From Acanthochlamys bracteata (Eukaryota; Streptophyta; Magnoliopsida; Pandanales; Velloziaceae), in the NCBI GenBank assembly GCA_019914995.1, contig CM034126.1:1803001-1867000 (forward strand): a stretch of 64,000 bases of DNA. Direction: 5' to 3'. Positions 5,407 to 63,372 of this stretch are shown in pieces. Numbering within the stretch: the stretch's first letter is position 1; each line of letters opens with the position of its first letter. A model generated the notes under the pieces. It was not told the DNA's origin and ran no database searches. It was given only the letters and a program-made list of their open reading frames with translations. A program made the position numbers and the translations under genes.

Positions 5407-6192
5407 CTAACATTCCCACAAGAAGGGTTCATCAAGCCGGAGCTCAACTCCGTCTTCTTCCACCGCCGACGTTAACCACGCAGAATATGGATAGCAGTGC
5501 CGGAACCCATCAGGGAGTCCGATGAACAAATCAGGAAGATCAAACAATTGAGCTTCATCATCATCATCATTCACATAAGTACTGCCATCATTGCCTGGCA
5601 ATGAATTAACATGCGAGATACGTCCAGAGGCTTCTGACAGATTGCCTTCCGGAGCTAAAGACTCCGCTTGCTCATCAGAGCACGACCGGAGCTTAAATGC
5701 AGCCGCTTTTATCGCAGCAACTTGAATATCTTTTGGGGAACAGCTAGTTGGTTGCGGAAGTAGGGAAGCAAGTTCAGGGAAGTTAAGGTAAGCAGATTGA
5801 CCTTTAATGGCGATGGCAGCGACATCGTGCGCCCGTGCGGCCATCTCCGCAGTTGGAAATGTTCCTAGCCAGATTCTGGACTTCTTTCGTGGTTCGCGGA
5901 TTTCTGATACCCATTTACCCCAGCTCCGCATTCTCACACCTCTGTATGTCGGGTGCTGATCATTCCTTCTCTTCTTTGCTTCGTTGCCAACTATTCCATT
6001 GCATGTCTTCTCCTTCTTCGGCAGTACTGATGAATCTGAAGAAGAAACTGAATGAGATGAGGCAGAACAAGTTGAAGTACTAGAATTGATTGAAGAATTT
6101 GAAGTAGAAAAAGAGGTTGTAGTGCAAGATGAAGAAGTACTTCTTCTAGAAGAAGAAGAAGAAGAAGAAGAATGGGGTTCTGTGTCTTCCAT
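5407..6192 (-). CDS. DREB A-4 type ERF transcription factor
   Basis: A 261-residue intronless AP2/ERF protein. One AP2 domain lies at about residues 82-139 ([18 protein letters not shown] through AYLNFPE). It is preceded by a basic KKRR stretch and has valine at the DREB-defining position of WVSEIRE. The AP2 flanks ([11 protein letters not shown], then SPKDIQ.AA..AA) and an acidic C-terminus with LPDLF and a final EPFLWEC match the A-4 group around Arabidopsis ERF034, ERF035, ERF038 and ERF039. Such proteins bind DRE/CRT elements in the nucleus; the target genes here are unknown. Residues 8-55 are very serine-rich, encoded partly by a GAA/CTT triplet run. I start at the ATG before EDTEPHSS because the frame extends upstream without another ATG. 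The subgroup is firm; a one-to-one orthologue is not. Confidence 0.95.
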
Positions 6193-6456
6193 TAGAAGAA
6201 AGAGCAACAGAAACAAGAACAAGAATGGTAGTGAGCAGTAGGGGAATAGAGGATGGGGGTTTTAATATGAATGAATGGGCAATGAGTGAGGAGAGGGAGA
6301 GAGGGAAAAGGCGGACCCCTACAAAAGAAGGTGCAGTTGTGCATATTTACTCGCTCAAGTGGACTGCTGTTTACGTTTTTATTTGGCTTTTGAGATGCTT
6401 TATATTATTAGACACCGTCCCTTATCTCTGTCTTTTATCTTTTTCTAATTATTGGC

Positions 6457-41208: not shown

Positions 41209-41513
41209 TAAAAAGCTCTCAGACAACCAAGTCTGGATGGGATCTCGGCAAATGAACTCAAATCAATGTCTAAATTTCGCAAATATTGAAACAATTGCAA
41301 TATCGGACAGAATTTCGCAATTGAATAATTGCAATATCGGACAGTTAACCATGATTATTGGCACATCGGACTGAAAATAATCTTTTGGTATTTCTACGAC
41401 AAAAAACCTGCTAGGTGAACAGAAAGTATCAAGGTTTACCTACTCTTTCTTCCCCGTCTTCGCTCGCCGATTCTTTTTTCTCCGGCAATCTAGCGACGAA
41501 ACTGAAAGTCAAA
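41209..41513. promoter_or_regulatory. Short divergent promoter between hydrolase pseudogene and NAGK
   Basis: The two start codons lie 305 bases apart on opposite strands. The interval contains a direct duplication: AATTGCAATATCGGACAG occurs at about 41291 and again at about 41327, and ACATCGGACTG follows at 41363. Such repeats could be regulatory, but no factor is assigned. Confidence 0.4.
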
Positions 41514-42542
41514 ATGCTAGCGGTGAAACCACTATCGGTCCATTCTCCTGCTTCCCAACACAAAATATTCTCGATCTCTACCAAAATCCGTAACAATCGA
41601 ATTATATTCACCGCAATACCGGAACCAAAATCAATTTCTCGAATCAGAGCAAGCGCAGCAACATCACCGTCACCACCGCGGGCCGAAGAAAGAGACCAGT
41701 TCCGGATCGAGATTCTATCAGAATCTCTACCATTCATTCAACGATTTCGAGGGAAAACAATTGTTGTTAAGTATGGCGGCGCTGCGATGACGTCACCTTC
41801 CCTGCAGTCTTCCGTCATCAAGGATATTGTTCTTCTTTCATGTGTTGGTCTCCGACCGGTTCTGGTACATGGTGGTGGTCCTGAGATAAATGCGTGGCTG
41901 CGCCGCCTCGGGGTTGAGCCTGTGTTCCGTGATGGTTTACGTGTTACTGATGAGACTACCATGGAGGTTGTTGAAATGGTTCTCGCTGGAAAAGTTAATA
42001 AATCACTTGTGGCGAACATTACTCGTGCAGGAGCTACTGCTGTTGGACTATGCGGAAAGGATGCCCGATTGATCACTGCCCGTCCTGCCCCGGATTCTTC
42101 CACTCTTGGGTTTGTGGGGGAGGTTGCTAGTGTTAATCCATCTATACTTAAGCCGATTATCAATGATGGCCATATACCGGTGATTGCTTCGGTTGCTGCT
42201 GATGAGAATGGGCAGGGTTACAATGTCAATGCAGACACAGCTGCAGGAGAGATTGCAGCTGCTTTAGGGGCTGAGAAGTTGATACTTCTTACAGACGTGA
42301 CAGGGATACTGGAAGACCGCAATGAACCAAATTCTCTGGTGAAAGAGATCGACATTGCTGGGATTAGAAAGATGGTGGCAGACAGGAAGGTCGCAGGAGG
42401 GATGATACCAAAGGTCAACTGCTGTATTAGGTCACTTGCACAGGGTGTCAGGACAGCTAGCATTATCGATGGTAGGGTGGAACATTCGCTACTGTTTGAG
42501 ATTCTTACCGATGAGGGAGCTGGAACGATGATCACTGGTTGA
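41514..42542 (+). CDS. NAGK: Plastid N-acetylglutamate kinase
   Basis: Phosphorylates N-acetylglutamate, the controlled step of arginine synthesis in plastids. In plants it is relieved of arginine inhibition by binding PII. The 342-residue protein is encoded without introns, as in Arabidopsis (347 residues). Residues 1 to about 60 are rich in Ser, Arg and Ala with few acidic residues, as in a transit peptide. The amino-acid kinase domain follows: KYGGAAM at 86-92, [10 protein letters not shown] at 118-126, GLCGKDARL at 178-186, [17 protein letters not shown] at 235-251 and LLTDVTGI at 258-265. The C-terminal arginine-site region [18 protein letters not shown] is intact. I start at the ATG before LAVKP because the frame continues upstream only from a non-ATG codon. 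It looks fully functional. Confidence 0.97.
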
Positions 42543-45308: not shown

Positions 45309-47458
45309 CTAAGATCCTTGGACACGGGCCACAACAACAATAATAAACACCATAACAGAGAGCATGAATGAAGATCTGATAGCAGCCTCAAAAGGATCAA
45401 GTTTCTCTTCCTCTTGCTCCCAGCCGAAGAGGTCATTTACAAGCTTACCTATCTTCTTGACTAGTTCTGTGATTCTTGCCTTGATATTTTCCATGATCCA
45501 ACTAACGACACCAGATGCAGCATGCTGATCATCATCAAAGTCGTCAGACAGTGTGCTCCCACCTATGCGACATACCAGGACAACTTATAAACAAAGATCA
45601 TTTCTATTTTTTTAAATGAGTAGATAGTGCTGAAATAAGTTCACAAACCTTCAGAGAAGGATCTCTTGATTTCTTGAACTACTTCATTCTTCATAACAGC
45701 ATCCCAGACAGCTTTATCAGATGAGAGTGAAACCACCATCCTCTGTATAAGAAATTCCATTGAATGGTTAACACTCTCTAAAACAATTTGCAAGTTTGCA
45801 TCTACAAGCAATAGAAAACTATAAAATACTTCCAAAAAATTCCTGGCTTATAGCTAAGAAATTCCCTGTAAATATAATCGATCAAAGATCAAACAATTCA
45901 ATACTTCAAATGTGCCAACTACTTTGCAGAGTAATGCTTCTGAATTAATGGGTGCACATGCATATGAAACCCAATCTAAACAAGTACGACACCAACAAAT
46001 GGACTTTTACCTCCTCAAAGGAAAGGGAACTTTACCTCTTTTCTAACATTTGACCTTGAGAAAAAAAGAAAGACGGGAAGCAGACAATGTTCCAGGTCAA
46101 ATACCTTGATTGCAGGATTTGTTTGCAACAAGTGAAATGCGTTCAGAACTCTACCATGCTCTGGAGAATGATAACCTCCAGAACTCAAAAGCTGCTGTGA
46201 TGGTTCAATCCAGTCTGATCCTACTTCAGCCAAGGATGTCCTCTGAAAGTTGTCACTTGAATTCCAAATTTCATTAGTCCCACTCTTAGGTGAGGACGGA
46301 AACTTGTCTTCTGAAATCTCGGAGTAGCTGAGGGGCACAAAGATCCTGCACAGAGTGCTATCACATAATTTGCCATGATTCAGAAAGGAAACCTAAGCCG
46401 ATTTTCACTTTATTTTAAAGTGTAGGCAGGTAGATATCCATTTTCCAGAATAAACAAGCATAAATCCGATTATTCTATGGAGCTACAATCACACTACGTT
46501 GAATTATTAATATACATAGTAGCACCACCTACAGCTCAAGTATATGAAATATCAAAGTAGAAAATAGTCATACAAAATTATTGATAGAAACCTTACAGAA
46601 GTCTATGCAATCATCTAGAAAGTTTTTAAGCGCAGATAGCAAAAGCTCTAAATCATAATCTAGGAGATCGAAGGTAGAATGAGTGCAGGTAACTGCATAG
46701 ATGCAACTGATTAGAACCTCCTCTTACGTTGATGATCCAATATCTACAGTGAATTCTGGGACTGATCAAGGTTAGGGAAAGTTTTAATATGAATAAGAGA
46801 TTCATTCTCACTTTCATTCTCAATGGTCCCCATAAAAAAAGAACCACTTTTTTGGGACTCATGACCAAATCTTTACTTCAAACTAAAATCATCAAAGCCA
46901 TTCGAACAATCATTTTCTAATTAATTGAAACGTCTTTCTTAAAGGCGTTGTTCTTCCAAAAGAAACCTTTCGTAAGCAAATAACTTCATGCGATTTCTCC
47001 AAGCAAGGTACGGAAAAAAAGGGAAGAATGAATTAGCCGAAGCAAGCAAAATCAATTAATCGAAGCAAGCAAGCTAACATAACTCACTGCTGAATAGTAG
47101 CAACAGCTTCCTCTGCTTCCTCTCTGGTTGGTGCAGGCCCAAACACAAGCCTCTCCTCTTCTTCCCACCGGTAATCTTCTGCCACATCTTCCCACTCATC
47201 AACAAGACACGATCGGGATAATCCTACCTTGTTGTTATGGCTGTTGCTCTCCCCCGTTGGAGAAAAAGTAACAAAAGAAACTGAAGAAGTTGAAGACGGC
47301 AGCGGAGATGATACAGTTGATGAAGCAGCAGCAGAGATGAAGTTGGATGATTTTGCAGCGCTACTGCTACGGACGGCGGAGATCGCGTTTGCGCCCATTG
47401 CTTTGCCCACGGCTCGCAGCATTCTTCCTCCGCCTACCCCTGTTGGCCTGCGCATCAT
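45309..47458 (-). CDS. Tail-anchored protein of unknown function, copy A
   Basis: Four exons (47458-47088, 46345-46105, 45742-45649, 45562-45309) join in phase to give 319 residues. The N-terminus is basic and low-complexity (MMRRPTGVGGGRMLRAVGKA), then Ser/Ala-rich. A conserved acidic block contains WEEEERLVFGPAPTREEA and EEAVATIQQ. A second conserved block is MVVSLSSDKAVWDAVMKN. The end is an amphipathic stretch (MENIKARITELVKKIGKLV), then a single membrane segment (MLSVMVFIIVVVARV) within the last 25 residues. That arrangement predicts a tail-anchored protein facing the cytosol. I do not recognise a named family. It is a tandem paralogue of the gene at 51.0-52.3 kb with the same exon number and phases. 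Two adjacent ATGs open the frame; I use the first. Confidence 0.85.
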
Positions 47459-47867
47459 CTTGTTTCTTCTTCACTGAAGAGAGAAGCACAGAAAGAGAAA
47501 GATAAGGGAACGTTTTAACTTGATGATGAAGGAATACGGCGGGAAGTGAGGCTGTGCTATGGCTCTGTGGCTTTCGTTTTGTCCCCGAGATTAAAGATTA
47601 GCATGCAGTAGAAGACAAAAACGCCTGACGCGCTTTGTTTTCTGAAAGGCGGTTTGTTATCTGTTTCTGACGGGAGAGAAGTGTGGAGATTGGCGAATTT
47701 GGATTAAACGGATTGGGTTGTGCAGTTCCATCTGCAGATAATGGAATGTGGTGATGGGGCCGAAACTTTTTAAGTTGATTGGGCCAGCTGAGAAATATGT
47801 TGGATCAAGTTTTGAGTTGGGCTGAAGGCGTGTACGTTGATGTTGTTAAGAGCGGGTTTGGTTTAAT

Positions 47868-51022: not shown

Positions 51023-52323
51023 TCAAGCCCTTCGGAGACGGCCCACAATGATGACAATGAAGGCCATAACAGATAGCATGAACGAAGTCTTCACTGCGAA
51101 ATGAAATGGCTTCGAGTTTCCATTCTTCTGGTGCAATATGCTTTTAACGAGCTTTCCTACGTTGTCAACCAGTTCTGAGAACCTTGCCATAATGTTCTCC
51201 AAGATCCACTTCAAAAGCCCAGGAGCAACTTGTTGTCTGTCATCTGTGTTTTCTAAACTGATGCTTTGTCCTGAGCAAGGGATTCACATGAATTAGTGCC
51301 AATTTAGGTTTACTGGATTGAATTGATTAGTAGATGATTCCATGAAAGAGGCTGTCCTTTCATTGTAATTGAGGCGGCTTCGGTAAGTGAAACACGATTT
51401 AATTTACCTTCAGAGAAGGACTTCTTGATTTCTTGGACGACATCGTTCTTCATAACAGCATCCCAAACAGCTTTGTCAGATGATAAAGAAACCACCATTT
51501 TCTGCATCATCATGTCACCACACAGATTGGTAATTAATAGTTTCAACTGGAAAAACAAAAACAAAAAGATTAATCAAATTAATGTTCATATATAGAGGTT
51601 ATGAATTGCTTACCTGGATCGCTGGGTTAACTTGCAGCAACTGCAAGGCATCAAAAACATTACTCTCATGTTCAGAAGATTGCAAAGTTCTCGAACTTAA
51701 AAGAGATTGTGAAGGCTCGATCCAATCTACTCCAGATCCTGCAACATTTTCCAAGCTCTTGCTCTGTTCAGAGATATCAGTTGAGGTACTAATAATCATG
51801 TCACCGTCTACCCTGCTGCTCGATGAAAGGTGTTGATCATCTTCAGCAATCTGTGAATAACTCAGGGGCAGAACAATCCTGCGCCATCGTATTGAATAGG
51901 AATATTGTTGAACTACGTATATAGAAATCCAAAACAATATTAAGCGCTAGCGACTGAAGCTTACTGCTGAATGGTAGCAACGGCCTCTTCCGCTTCCTCC
52001 CTAGTCGGCACCGGCCCAAAGACCAGCCTCTCCTCCTTCTCCCACCCATAATTATCATCCCAAACAAAAGCCCAGTCATCAACAAACCAGCTGTGCACCA
52101 GCGGCTGTTGGCTCTCACCTGTCACCACGAAGGATGAAGACGCTGAAGCAGGCGGTGTAGGAGACGACACGGTTGAAGAATTAGCTGATGTCACTGAAAC
52201 TGACCTTGCAGGTTTAGTTGCCCATGCGCCCCGTGCTGCAGACACTGCGTCTGCTCCAGTTCCAACTGCCCGTCCTACTGCCCGCAAAACTCTTCCACCG
52301 CTCATCCCTGCCGGCCTCCTCAT
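51023..52323 (-). CDS. Tail-anchored protein of unknown function, copy B
   Basis: Four exons (52323-51965, 51878-51614, 51501-51408, 51270-51023) join in phase to give 321 residues. The layout matches copy A: MRRPAGMSGGRVLRAVGRAV at the start, EKEERLVFGPVPTREEAEEA, a third exon of exactly the same length (94 bases; MVVSLSSDKAVWDAVMKN), and a C-terminal segment FMLSVMAFIVIIVGRLRRA. The end is more basic than in copy A (RRA against QGS), and the linker between domains diverges strongly, so targeting may differ; that is an inference. I start at the ATG before RRPAG, matching copy A; upstream the frame has only a non-ATG codon. The protein is intact and the family unknown. Confidence 0.85.
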
Positions 52324-52940
52324 GTTTAATTTCTTCAAACACAGATAAGAAGATAAGAGGTATACAGGTTATATACATCACATTTCTCCGCTAATCAGTA
52401 GCGATTATCGTAAGAAATTAAAAGTATGAAATGGAATTATTGGTTCATTGAAGTAGTGAGTGGATATGATGAATTCTTGTGGGAGAAGAAGAAGAAAAAA
52501 GAAGATTTAGATGGACGCATACGGCGGGATTAGTGATTTACACAGGTCAATCTGTTGTCTTGTGACACGCAACGATTGCCGTAGTGGACAACGGATGCGA
52601 ACATGATTTTTTTCTGCGAAGCGATCGATTTGTGATAGGCGCTGGCTGTGATAGTCACGGTCAAAAAGTTTTGTGGTGCTTGTTGCATGTAGCCGCCGGC
52701 CATCCATGGCACTGACGGCACCAGTTTATTTCATGTATTCTCATGCACATCAATACAATAAAATAAACTACTGGTTTGTATGTTACTGTTTCCATACCGT
52801 ATAAGCTCATTTTCTTTACTTTATCGTGCAGTTCCTTTATTTAATGGGGAAGTTAATCCTTCAGTATATGTGTAAGAAGTAGGATGCACGTACAAGTAAA
52901 TCATGAAAAGGTTGCTTTCAGAAAGGTTACTTAAGAAGCT

Positions 52941-56274: not shown

Positions 56275-58094
56275 TTAAGGATGGAACCATCCAAGATCTA
56301 GTCGATCTTCATCATAAAAGTGAGAAGTTGGTGGCTGGCTTGTGTCGGGTGTCTTCGCGAACCGCCCTTTGATCCTAGGTCTCATCTCCGCATATGCCTT
56401 CCTCGAAGCATACCGGATTTGTTTTTCGTACCTCCTCTTGTTCCTCTTCTCTTTGTACCTCATAACCTTGGCTTCTCTATCAGTTGCAGGATCACTTTGC
56501 CCAGGATTTGAACCCATTGCGTCGCTAGCTTCTTTCAAATCATTTCCACTTGAAGCATCTTTTAATGTGCTTCCGGTGAACGACAGCTGCGAAAGAATCA
56601 GGCATAAGCATAAGATGGAATTAGAAACAATACTCTTACACGGTACATATATATGTTTTACAAAAAATTAAGAGCGTTTGAAAATACGAAAGATATTTTT
56701 ATTTTTAAAAAATAAGATTTAATTTTTTAATCTAAAAAAATAAAAATAAAAAAATCTTACTACTTATATTTTTAAATAAAATTTCTAAATATTTATAAAA
56801 ATATATTAAAAATATAAATAAAAATTAAAATAGAGTTTTTAAAAAATGCTGTTTTAAACGCCCCCTAATTACATGAAATGACAGTTCCTGAGTTTAATTG
56901 ATGATACATGTCCATACGTTTGAAAGACTTTTTAACAAGAGAAGTCCATACATCACGACGAGTTGACAACATCACTCTCGGACAATAGTAACATATTTTG
57001 GTAGTGAGATAAATTCCCTCCTTTTTCCCTTTTACAAGTGGTAGTTTTATTGGTTGAAATAAGAGAAAATCATTGTCTTTGCATAACTTCAAAAGAGAGT
57101 TCAATTGCATTAAATACTTCGACCAAGATCTACCACACAAACAACCAGATAATAATATGAATACTAAAAGACTTAAAAATTGATGGCTTCCAGTTAAAGT
57201 TGAAGGTGGCACAGAATCAACCACAAAAATTTGTTCACTCTGATCAATAATTTCAGTGAATTTTTCTTGTATATGACAAAACGGGAAAAAAGTCATTCAT
57301 AAAAACTTTAATATGTGACTTGTCGGCAGAACAAAGAAGATAAACATGAGCAGATTCACATTTCCATCATACATAATCAAATAGCTGTTCCTACCCATCG
57401 ATTAATGTCTTAAAAAACCTGATGTCTTTTGATGATACATATGTTTTTGTTAGTTTTCCTTTTTCCTGACAAATTAAGTAAAACCTCTCTCAAACTATCA
57501 CTGGAGATATTGAATCTTAAGGATGACTGAACAAGGGAAACAAAAAAGACAGTGAAGAGCTTGGGCTAATTAACCTATCTACGGCTGCATGAGTTGATCA
57601 TAAATAAATCACAAACCTCCTACTATATGATCAAGTGAGATAATCGAACCACTCACGATAGTGGCGCTAGAAGCCGCCTGGCCGCCAAGTCCAGAGAGCT
57701 CCATCACTGGTGACCGTGGGACAACATCAGGCGGAGAGCTCGTTGAGCTCAAGCAAACATCAAAAGTCAGCCGCCCAGCAGCAGGGATGCATGGCTGTTG
57801 CTGTTGCTGCCTCAAGCTCTCCAAGTAATTAGATGTCGGTGGCGGCACTCCCATTGACTGCTGATGTTGATGCTGCTGGTGTTCTTCAGGTGCTGTGTTG
57901 GGATCATTGAAGAGCCATGCGACGGAGTCATCATGGCCGAAGAACTGGAACTCTTGCAGGCCGTCATCATGCCCGTGATCAGGTTCTTGGAACAGCTGCG
58001 GAACACCAAGGTTAAGATCGGTGTGGTGCGAGCAGGCCTTGCCGGCCAGCCTGCACGCGTCACAGGGATCAAAGAAGGACATGGCAGCAATCAT
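56275..58094 (-). CDS. CCT-domain transcriptional regulator, Ghd7-like
   Basis: Two exons (58094-57657 and 56586-56275) join in phase to give 249 residues; rice Ghd7 has 257 and also two exons. The N-terminus has a zinc-finger-like C11-x2-C14..C21-S-H cluster ([14 protein letters not shown]). [17 protein letters not shown] at 46-62 and RLTFDVCLS at 108-116 match Ghd7 in order. The exon junction falls at ASSATI|LSFTGST, just where Ghd7 has SATIMSYCGST. The CCT domain (184-226; [20 protein letters not shown], then [19 protein letters not shown]) is intact, and the protein ends in LDLGWFHP. Histidine/glutamine-rich tracts lie at 71-100. CCT proteins act with NF-Y factors and repress flowering; a flowering role here is inferred from Ghd7. 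An alternative start four codons later is possible. Confidence 0.92.
56674..56861. repeat. MITE-like AT-rich insertion in the CCT intron
   Basis: GCGTTTGAAAA at the left edge pairs with TTTTAAACGC at the right edge, around an A/T centre with internal inverted runs. It sits at the 3' side of the single intron of the CCT gene, about 90 bases from the acceptor. It probably inserted as a small DNA transposon. Confidence 0.5.
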
Positions 58095-61000
58095 AACACC
58101 GATGATTATAGATAACCCAGTGGCTGTATAGCTGAAAATAGGTAGTATAATGAGTATTGCTTAAGGCGAGGTACTTGCCCAATGAGTTCTACTAGCTAGC
58201 TAGGGTTGTGGTAGAGAGAAGATTGATCATCAGGAGAATGCGGAAGAAGTTAAATACTTAAATGGTGTGTGGTGTGAACCAAGTGACGTTCTGTAACGAA
58301 GGAAGGAGCCAATCAGTGAAGAGGAAGAGATAGGGGCGATCAAAGATTTCTTACGTGGAAGAGTCCTGACCACCTTTCTCTTCTTTCCTCCATATATGAA
58401 TATATCTTTTATTAACTACAAATGGTTTTGTTTTGAGGAGAAAAGGAATTTCTACTTTGTGGACATAGAGGACTGGTTCCTCAGCAGCAAAGTGACTTGT
58501 GGCATCCCTAGCAGCTGCCCAAGTTTCTCCTAGGCTCCTAGCTAGCTACGTATTCAAATTGGATGAACTTATATAGTATAAATTAATTCATCATCCTAAA
58601 TTTTCTACTTTTCCAATGGTCACGCAACGCCAATATGTTTCCTTTTCCTACTGTTCGACCAAATAAACATGGACAACCTAGTTCAATGAGACGGTATGAC
58701 TAGCTAGATGGAAGTGAAATTTTATCTCAAATTCTTAACACTTTGCTGTAAGAAGTTAGGATATAGTTCACACAGATGAGTACTGAAAGAATTAACTAAA
58801 TGATGTGTAGATTTACTGTTGAAAGATTAAGTTGCACAAAATCAGTTCTGATAAATTTACAAGTGGCTGGATGGATGGATGGAAAGTAGATTTAGTATCC
58901 TATTGGAATGAGAGTACTATGGCATATTTTAGTTACCATCAAATTCTATTTTTTTATATTTTGAATTAAACACTACAAGTATTTTAATCAGTATTTTAAA
59001 ATTTATTTTTACTTTCATACCGAATTATATTTTCATCAAAAATTTAATATAAATTTTATATAATTTAGTTATCATTTCAAACTTTATTTTTATCGAATTT
59101 TAGTTCTTATAAACTCTACTTTCACATCACCTAAAGCAAAACTCCGTTGCTATTTTTCTACTTGTCTGATTGTCTTTTACAACGGTAATGAATCCTGACA
59201 ACTGCTGGAGTACTATTTATAAGGGAGTTAGACAAAAGACTGAATATATCCCGGAAGATTTAGAAGGTATTTGGTTGAACGTTTCTCTAATATATTTTTT
59301 TTAATTTTTAATTTTATATTTTTTAATATATATTTTATAAGTATATAAAAATTTATTTAAAAATTTAAAAAAATTTTACGTAATAAAATTTTTTTATTAC
59401 ATATTATTATTATTTTTTTAAAAATAAAAAAATAAAATTTATTTAAAAAAAATTTTATTTTATAATAAATTCCGAAAACACGAGCAGGAGTTGGTGTTCC
59501 AACTTCCAAGAAGAACATGATCAATGAAGCACCATCATTTCGGTGAATTCTAGTACGAAAATGGTGCACTTAAAAATTTAGTTTATTTCTTAAATTCTTA
59601 GCAGACAGAAAGAATACTGAACTTGGAAACCTGTGCTCTTGGAGGCCTTCAGCTGCAATATCAAATGCAGCATGTTTCTTCTGATGGAGATCAAGAACCG
59701 GCTTCAAAAAAAGTTCTTTTTTTTCCCCCTAAAACACTTCTCAGCAACCCAAACGTGCAGAATGTGGGCACTAAACCATTGAAACAGTTATATCTAGCAA
59801 AAGAAAACGCTTTCAACATCCTTGCACTTTACATAACATTTTTGGGGAATTATTTTAAGACAACTACGAGATCTCAACCCCTGATTCCACTTTTTTTCTC
59901 CTTCAAAATTAGTGCTTTTCAGCTAGTAGTTTGTTCTTGAAAATTAGTCTGGATTTGATTTATCAGGCACCTTCACCAATTGACTTGAATATCAATTCAA
60001 CATATCTCTGTTTCTTCAAAAATGTCTTCCTGCAAAATAGAAATTAAAAGAACCATGCAATCTATGTAAGAAATATGGAGCTTGTGAAGCTATCCTTGCA
60101 CAGTTCAGAACTTGCTTTTCTAAAAGTACCTAAGATCATATTCGTTTTGTTGCAAGAGTTAATATGCTGAATGTTTTCCCTAACCTAGTATTTTGTGACT
60201 AAATACAATTGGATGAAGCTAGTTTAGCATTTGGATATGTTTTTAGAGACTAACACCAACAAAAATTTCCAAACCGAAGTACTTTCCAACTGCCATTCTT
60301 AGAGAAACTGCTATTAATGCTTCTAGTTTCTACAAATTCATGTTTTTGGTGAGATGTCTTCCAATAATCACAGCACCTAAGTATTGAAATTAAACTATAA
60401 AATTTGGACCAGGTGATAGGTAAATCAAAACCTAGAAAACTTTAAACATAATTTTAAGGGGTCGATAAGTTCAAACAGCAACAAGGTGTAACTGTCTAGA
60501 TGCAACGAAGCTAATCTTTTAACGATTTAAAAGATCCCAAACCATGAATATCCTCTGAATCATTTATCAATATTAAACAAAAGCAAACTTATACCAACCA
60601 TTAGAGTCATAGTAATACGATGAACTAGGAATGCATGTTATTGAAAACTAAAGCCACCAGCTAAGACATTTAAACTTTAATTGTGCAAAAAGAAGTTTCA
60701 TCAGAGAGCACTTCAATCCTTGTCAAATGGCAGCTACGATGGTATTCCCGTCCTCTAGAAGACAATACATTTCATACAAGAATCATCCTTAATATCAACA
60801 TCAATGAGCCAATTTTGAATAGAAAAGTCTGTCAAAACTATAGTTCAAATCCACAACCAAAAAAGCTCAGGTTACCAAGAAATGGAAATTGTCCATCAAT
60901 TGAATGTCTAATTTCATGCAGCGTTCAACCATTGAAGATAAGATCTCAATATGGGGAAGTTAGTAAGTACCCAAACTATGTTAAGAAGGTTATGAGATTG

Positions 61001-61865: not shown

Positions 61866-63372
61866 TCATTTTAGTCTGCCTTCTGTACAACTGTCCTTGA
61901 GATTTTGCAATGCTTTCCTGATGTCATTTTCTCCTAGGTTAGAGTACTTCAAACAGATTAATTTTTGGGCAACACTGTATGTAACTTGAATTGAATTATG
62001 CTGCTCAAAATCAATGTCAACCCTCCTTGTTTCCTGCAAAGTAGAATTGGGAAACAAAAATCACATCTGTTATCACTGTTAGTTCTCAAGGCTAGATTTC
62101 TCCCAGATGTCTTCAAATAATGCCAATCTTCTTAAAGGGGCCTATGCAATTCCATGAGCATCAAACACAGTATGATAAATATATAGACTTATCAATAAAG
62201 AAGGACAAGAAATAGAAAACAGCTGCCGCCTCATAACACTAGTTCTACTGATCTCTAATTGTGAGATAGAAACTGATGTCTATAATAAGCAATGAGATTT
62301 TTTTTTTGGGGTTGGGTGTGGGGGGGAGGTGGTGGTTGTTAGTGAAAATGTCTTTCGCACCTCACTTGCTTCTGCATATAAGCAATATCACTGACATAGT
62401 GCAGTAAAACATGATTCAAACCATTCAATACCATCTCTGTGATTCTTGAAGTTATAGCCTGTGCTGTTTCAATCACTGAGTTTGGTAGACCTGCAACCCC
62501 AGCCAACAGAAGGCCGTAATGTGGTACATGGTGGGTTCCATCCCTGAGACAGAACTGATGTTTAGGATGTATTAGCAGTTCGTTATCATAAAATGATAAT
62601 AACCTGAAGATATAGGAAATACCTTAAAATCTAAGCGGTTATTCCTCAAGTCCACTTCAAAATGAAGCATTTTAACATTTGGATAGATGCTTGCCAATTG
62701 TGATAAACCTTTCATATGTGTTGCAAATATTGTATAGCTGTGTAGAACAATAGCTCACTACATAAGGTACAAACCTTAACTCAATGAACAAGCAAGTTAT
62801 CTATAATAAGCTAAAGAAGGAATAACGTGCGACATTGCTTGTTGCCTACAATGACCAAGATGAACTACAAACTCAAGTTGCAGAAAGCAGTTACTTTTTC
62901 TTCATCCAATCTAACATTAAACATATCAACCCCAAAGTTTCCATATGAATAGTATGACATAAAATAATACTCAAGGTGGGGCTTCAATGACAAAAAATTC
63001 AGTAGCATAGCTCAGGTTGTGCGAAAAGCCTAAATAAAGTTCTCTAAAGCCTTTTACATTTGAAACACATGACCTCCTTAAAATTATCAAATGATGTAAT
63101 TATAGTGTAAGGATTTAAAACATTACGCCTTGAGAGATAGAAGATGTTCACAACAGCTCCATGCAATGGCAAATCCATCCGATGAAGATGTAGCACGTCC
63201 AAGCTCATCTATTACAATTAAACTCCTGCAGTCGAGGTTAAGACAAAAAGACAATCAGACTACCTGTTCCAATTAATAGATGTGTATTCAGGTAACCAAG
63301 AACAGCAGCAGAGAGATACCTAGGAGTAATATTTTGCATGAGAAAAGCTGTTTCCCTCATTTCAGTCATGAA
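61866..63372 (-). CDS. MSH4: Meiotic MutS homologue MSH4, C-terminal part
   Basis: MSH4 pairs with MSH5 to stabilise recombination intermediates and promote interfering crossovers in meiosis; it does not repair mismatches. Five exons are in the window (63372-63320, 63225-63127, 62737-62623, 62554-62432, 62033-61866), encoding the last 185 residues in phase. They hold the end of the ATPase domain: [18 protein letters not shown], the Walker B region [31 protein letters not shown], then [13 protein letters not shown] and the C-terminal helical region with [11 protein letters not shown] and ALQNLKDS. The Walker A and all earlier domains lie past the right edge. FCLRDG replaces the more usual FQLRDG at one exon junction; this may be natural variation. 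The visible part is intact. Confidence 0.94.

Follow-up and report, generated by a model that had tools for sequence, protein, structure and literature searches.

The locus described here raises the question of whether a gene of the Ghd7 type, which is thought to be without Arabidopsis homologues and whose grass orthologues have shifted position (PMC3503983), is present in the window (the whole stretch of 64,000 nucleotides that was analysed) and, if so, in what kind of plant. A sequence-only reading had proposed a Ghd7-like CCT gene in an apparent eudicot and, from it, an old Ghd7 lineage that some eudicots have kept. Modeling from the sequence alone bore out the first part of this proposal, since it gave an intact two-exon Ghd7-like gene on the minus strand (58082-56275), with a predicted product of 245 residues, or 249 if the ATG at 58094 is used. 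Its parts, together with two pieces of a neighboring gene, are listed below.

57657..58082, minus strand: first of the two exons of the Ghd7-like gene (142 codons); open frame with a GT donor, 86% identical in the copy found on C2; encodes an N-terminal C-x2-C-x6-C-x2-H cluster, EFQFFG, SVAWLF, poly-Q stretches and LTFDV
56587..57656, minus strand: single intron of the Ghd7-like gene, phase 0, GT-AG, 1070 bp
56275..56586, minus strand: exon 2 of the Ghd7-like gene, 103 codons plus stop; encodes a GSTLKDAS block, the CCT domain and the C-terminal RLDLGWFHP
56350..56478, minus strand: CCT domain, from a genome-wide Pfam CCT search (C1:1859350-1859478, E 2.1e-16)
58083..58094, minus strand: candidate 4-codon N-terminal extension (MIAA) from an in-frame upstream ATG; MISA in the C2 paralogue
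58083..58901, minus strand: upstream region (about 0.8 kb) that aligns with that of the C2 paralogue
62432..62521, minus strand: presumed MSH4 coding piece (MutS domain V), upstream neighbor; profile match, C2 copy
63126..63239, minus strand: second presumed MSH4 coding piece (MutS domain V); profile match, C2 copy

Either start is possible, the upstream ATG giving MIAAMSFF in the window copy and MISAMSFF in the C2 paralogue. The upstream alignment belongs to a single match (about 71% identity) that extends over exon 1 and into the intron. CCT was the sole Pfam domain of the window protein (residues 179-221, 64.1 bits), and no B-box was detected by Pfam, in a scan at E 0.001. The ordered Ghd7-type blocks of the protein read [35 protein letters not shown], followed by the CCT domain and the C-terminus RLDLGWF; the list of blocks taken as specific to Ghd7 follows the sequence-only reading. 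The features that this reading had listed (the EFQFFG, SVAWLF and LTFDV blocks, the single intron, the CCT domain and the Ghd7-type C-terminus) were found, and the N-terminal Cys/His cluster is present in the window copy. In the C2 paralogue, however, Asn takes the place of the final His of C-x2-C-x6-C-x2-H, the sequence there being [14 protein letters not shown]. In both copies exon 1 ends with ATI in phase 0, and exon 2 starts with LSFTGS (window) or MSFTGS (C2); the GSTLKDAS block of the window copy is GSTFTDAS in the C2 copy.

To place the gene among CCT proteins, we aligned the part of the window protein that precedes the CCT domain with the same part of seven proteins, with 300 shuffles each, provisional reference sequences standing for rice Ghd7 and Arabidopsis CO. 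The rice Ghd7 reference reached 155, against shuffled scores that averaged 33.2 and peaked at 64 (z = 22.2), and the C2 paralogue 789. The Arabidopsis CO reference and four COL proteins built from this genome stayed between 31 and 39 (z -0.2 to 1.0). Among the proteins compared, the pre-CCT similarity was therefore specific to Ghd7. In the CCT core, 42 of the 43 residues were identical to the window protein in the paralogue, 37 in the Ghd7 reference, 34 in each of the four COLs and 32 in the CO reference. The window CCT domain could also be aligned with the solved CCT chains of CONSTANS and HD1.

The genome-wide search gave 37 CCT matches, and the sequences of 11 were retrieved, that of the window gene among them. 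Complete proteins were built from five loci (on C2, C19 and C20, on C11 at 7.6 Mb and on C8 at 0.42 Mb), while C3 and C17 gave partial group III COL proteins and L039, L040 and L041 were excluded from the trees. The window gene, its C2 paralogue and the rice Ghd7 reference, the only family member from outside the genome in either tree, formed a clade both in the full-length tree (10 rows; support 100/99, with a long-branch warning) and in the CCT-only tree (12 rows; support 100/100). Kinship of the window gene with Ghd7 rather than with generic COL proteins, which the sequence-only reading had argued from the shared blocks, is supported by these comparisons. Neither tree singled out a nearest COL type; in the CCT-only tree the C8 and C11 COL copies were slightly nearer by path than the C19 and C20 copies labeled COL4. 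The type names of these four copies, including COL4 for those on C19 and C20, are provisional.

The likeness to the rice Ghd7 reference comprises a single CCT domain, the lack of a B-box, the N-terminal Cys/His cluster, EFQFFG, SVAWLF, LTFDV, an intron outside the CCT domain and a C-terminus of the form RL[DE]LG(Q)WF. The window protein ends with RLDLGWF where the rice Ghd7 reference has RLELGQWF, and its N-terminus is shorter. The COLs of the same genome resemble it in the CCT domain and in having a phase-0 intron at an equivalent place, but they keep two B-boxes, end with GYG[VI]VPSF and show no pre-CCT similarity above that of the shuffles.

These COLs also bear on the origin of the gene. 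In all four, the phase-0 intron precedes [MIV]SSSE: the C19 and C20 paralogues have two B-boxes, an exon 1 ending with SHS and an exon 2 starting with MSSSEVGVV, and the C11 and C8 copies are arranged alike (NNS, then ISSSE or VSSSE). The C19 and C20 proteins start with PCDSC, which resembles the PCDAC of the window protein. By eye, the N-terminal [15 protein letters not shown] of the window protein can be aligned on PCDSC-KSAAALLY-C-RAD of B-box 1; an automatic alignment paired no Cys of the two beyond PCD-C. The Cys/His cluster is probably left over from the N-terminal half of B-box 1. From this B-box-like cluster and the phase-0 intron arrangement we infer that the Ghd7-like gene descends from a group I COL gene (of the COL4 type according to PMC11180029) that would have lost its B-boxes. 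Reading the cluster as half a B-box fits the published origin of Ghd7 and VRN2 from COLs by B-box loss.

Such an origin has a published frame. PMC11180029 describes a monocot-wide GHD7-like clade (support 88) that arose by an early monocot duplication of COL4-type genes and whose members (MonGHD7L) lost the B-box motifs, so that Ghd7-like genes of non-grass monocots are already on record; Acanthochlamys is not mentioned in the excerpted treatment of this clade. The window gene resembles MonGHD7L as a COL-related protein without B-boxes from a non-grass monocot (see below), and its features and taxon point to membership. Against this reading counts PMC3454399, in which CMF8 (Ghd7), CMF11 and ZCCT have one conserved intron in common that differs from the intron of other COL genes, and in which the branch of CMF and ZCCT is considered Poaceae-specific. 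From grass Ghd7 (OsCMF8), VRN2/ZCCT and CMF11 (HvCO9) the window gene differs in being a non-grass gene and in occurring as two copies from a duplicated block.

Searched with the exon 1 protein, the genome yielded two hits, one in the window and one at C2:2049141-2049560. The gene on C2 is built alike, both copies are open, and 211 of 243 aligned protein residues are identical. For this one pair, the Nei-Gojobori method gave a dS of 0.46 and a dN of 0.065 (ratio 0.14). Within the CCT domain the ratio fell to 0.014; over the rest of the protein it was 0.19. Judged by these ratios, both copies are under purifying selection. A promoter scan of the 1.5 kb upstream of both copies yielded no reliable motif: evening elements and G-boxes were absent from both, and the CCAAT and CORE cores seen there may be chance occurrences.

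The neighbors on C1 and C2 are collinear and all on the minus strand: an uncharacterized gene (C1:1855039 and C2:2035248), the Ghd7-like gene and two MSH4 pieces (C1:1865432 and 1866126; C2 counterparts at 2057948, 76% identical, and 2058784, 81% identical, with no stops). The pair therefore arose when this block or the whole genome was duplicated; PMC11891173 mentions signals of duplication in A. bracteata. The duplicated block, C2:2035248-2058861, is collinear with about 52-63 kb of the window, and the second MSH4 copy is seen in it as two short pieces. Joined as one query, the two adjacent minus-strand coding pieces of the window matched MutS domain V (E 3.4e-15); the presumed name MSH4 follows the sequence-only reading. 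A second open copy would be unusual for a meiosis gene such as MSH4. We rejected a candidate decayed MSH4 copy on C2 (a 57% match with a TGA), because the match spanned the seam of the joined query; single-piece queries gave 76% over 29 residues and 81% over 26, without stops. The second piece had a third match at C5:1081716 (56%), which may be another MutS-family gene.

The source of the window was assessed from plastid sequences in the assembly (195.5 Mb, 557 contigs), which contained 42 rps19 matches; the best 10 were scanned for tRNAs. trnH-GUG adjoined rps19 in five of these 10 loci, on five small contigs (L016, L017, L018, L020 and L024). Among the same best 10 of 42, no trnH was found beside rps19 in L025, a short contig end, or in L019, L021, L022 and L023, on large scaffolds; judged by their place, the latter four are nuclear genes or insertions. 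Longer stretches of two of the five contigs (L026 and L027) showed a presumed rpl2 on the other side of trnH, and the presumed rpl2 frames were broken in L028. In the survey of 123 angiosperms by Wang et al. (2008; PMC2275221), most monocots are characterized by having trnH and rps19 clustered in both inverted repeats; Winteraceae are exceptional non-monocots that have it and some Alismatales lack it.

The repeat junction was located from both of its sides. Toward rps19, nine loci (six contigs) continue from the first 9 bp of that gene, with a presumed GTG start, into the rest of it. Among 28 psbA-family matches, six loci were examined: four on three contigs (L044, L045, L046 and L048, of which L046 and L048 overlap on one contig) were identical up to those 9 bp of rps19 and then diverged, while L047 and L049 were more diverged, with no trnH found in either. 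psbA ended 111 bp from the junction in L044 and L045. According to PMC8238049, 9 bp of rps19 fall within IRb in Acanthochlamys bracteata, but the gene remains inside the LSC in two Xerophyta species, and psbA is 111 to 117 bp from the junction across these three plants. The junction found here, 9 bp inside rps19, is the one published for A. bracteata (Velloziaceae, Pandanales), unlike that of the two Xerophyta species. Plastid genes on many of the short contigs (L010-L015, L026-L031 and L044-L049) were interrupted here and there by frame breaks and stops, and the small contigs have the appearance of plastid reads left uncorrected or of decaying plastid insertions.

Two other observations pointed the same way, more weakly. 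Of four TIR candidates scored genome-wide (195.5 Mb), one passed (L009, C6:3501609-3501899); this count, made on this genome alone, fits a monocot, though some eudicots also lack TIR genes. An rbcL stretch of 370 residues had 1wdd as its best chain (832.7 bits), followed by 1rlc and 3rub (822.1), taken to be rice (1wdd) and tobacco (1rlc and 3rub). On the type and position of the plastid junction, it is virtually certain that the source is a monocot, and very probable that it is A. bracteata. Such a source had been named beforehand in the sequence-only reading as a refutation of its own eudicot claim, and the claim is therefore refuted, provided that the plastid contigs are native to the assembly.

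The retention of an ancient Ghd7 lineage in a eudicot is accordingly extremely improbable. It could draw on the several ordered Ghd7 blocks of the protein, on the low GC of the window (26-42% per 2 kb), which may suggest a eudicot, and on Elaeagnus formosana, a eudicot named in PMC2275221 among plants with a junction beyond trnH; against it stand the trnH-rps19 adjacency on five small contigs, the junction at the A. bracteata position, the single TIR match and the presumed rice entry as best rbcL match. A generic COL or CMF protein that acquired the shared blocks by convergence is just as hard to credit. Two COL paralogues have an AASWLL that can be lined up with SVAWLF, and all the proteins compared share the CCT domain, but the pre-CCT z value was 22.2 for the Ghd7 reference against at most 1.0 for CO and the COLs, and the CCT domain by itself also grouped with the Ghd7 reference.

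The remaining alternatives concern what the gene does. One of the two copies could be dispensable, given the other, and 34.5 nonsynonymous differences separate them outside the CCT domain; yet both frames are open, the ratios of nonsynonymous to synonymous change are low, above all in the CCT domain, and the supposed stop in the MSH4 copy on C2 was an artefact of the joined query, so that a redundant or decaying duplicate is very unlikely. A more serious competitor, though one we consider unlikely, is a true Ghd7-like factor with a main role other than day-length repression, e.g. in growth, branching or stress response. Rice Ghd7 affects height and grain number (PMC3503983), and PMC11180029 states that functional data are lacking for all orchid COL4 homologues; the strong conservation of the CCT domain of both copies and of the Ghd7 blocks suggests, on the contrary, a conserved biochemistry.

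The reading that we prefer, and regard as very probable, is that a non-grass monocot, most probably A. bracteata, carries here an intact and unremarkable Ghd7-like gene of the MonGHD7L kind, derived from a COL gene, duplicated with its block and presumably acting as a flowering repressor. The gene would have been doubled with the chromosome block after its origin, and both copies kept by selection. By inference from rice, its CCT domain would join an NF-YB/NF-YC dimer in place of NF-YA, and the trimer would bind CORE or CCAAT-type sites near florigen-pathway genes. The CCT domain and the Ghd7-specific N-terminal blocks would in this way lower florigen-gene expression in non-inductive day length and delay flowering. 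DNA binding, partner binding, repression and day-length control are all attributed to the window protein by analogy. In rice, a GHD8-OsHAP5b-HD1 heterotrimer activates Ghd7, with suppression of Ehd1 and lower Hd3a (PMC6825352).

The striking claim of a Ghd7 gene in a eudicot is thus replaced by a modest one, a non-grass monocot with two intact Ghd7-like genes. New here is the duplicated pair itself, both members open and under selection, in a block shared with MSH4. We found no earlier report connecting Ghd7 with Velloziaceae, Pandanales, Acanthochlamys or Xerophyta among the open-access papers listed, nor any of eudicot or dicot Ghd7 homologues among open-access titles. With the pair, the grass genes Ghd7, VRN2 and CMF11 gain an outgroup. 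A bolder and rather doubtful reading is that flowering repression of the Ghd7 type is older than the grasses and that this Pandanales herb has retained it in two functional duplicates; if so, a comparison of the two copies could show what portions of Ghd7 act before VRN2 and Ghd7 separated within the grasses.

Other genes were noted in the window. Two neighboring open frames on the minus strand, 51964-52368 and 47087-47470, are related (54% identical), and one of them is also copied in the C2 block; frame 51964-52368 matched no Pfam family at E 0.01. A gene of the amino acid kinase family lies at 41415-42539 on the plus strand (Pfam E 1.3e-47), its product being presumably acetylglutamate kinase, and an AP2-domain (ERF-type) gene lies at 5410-6261 on the minus strand (Pfam E 1.1e-14).
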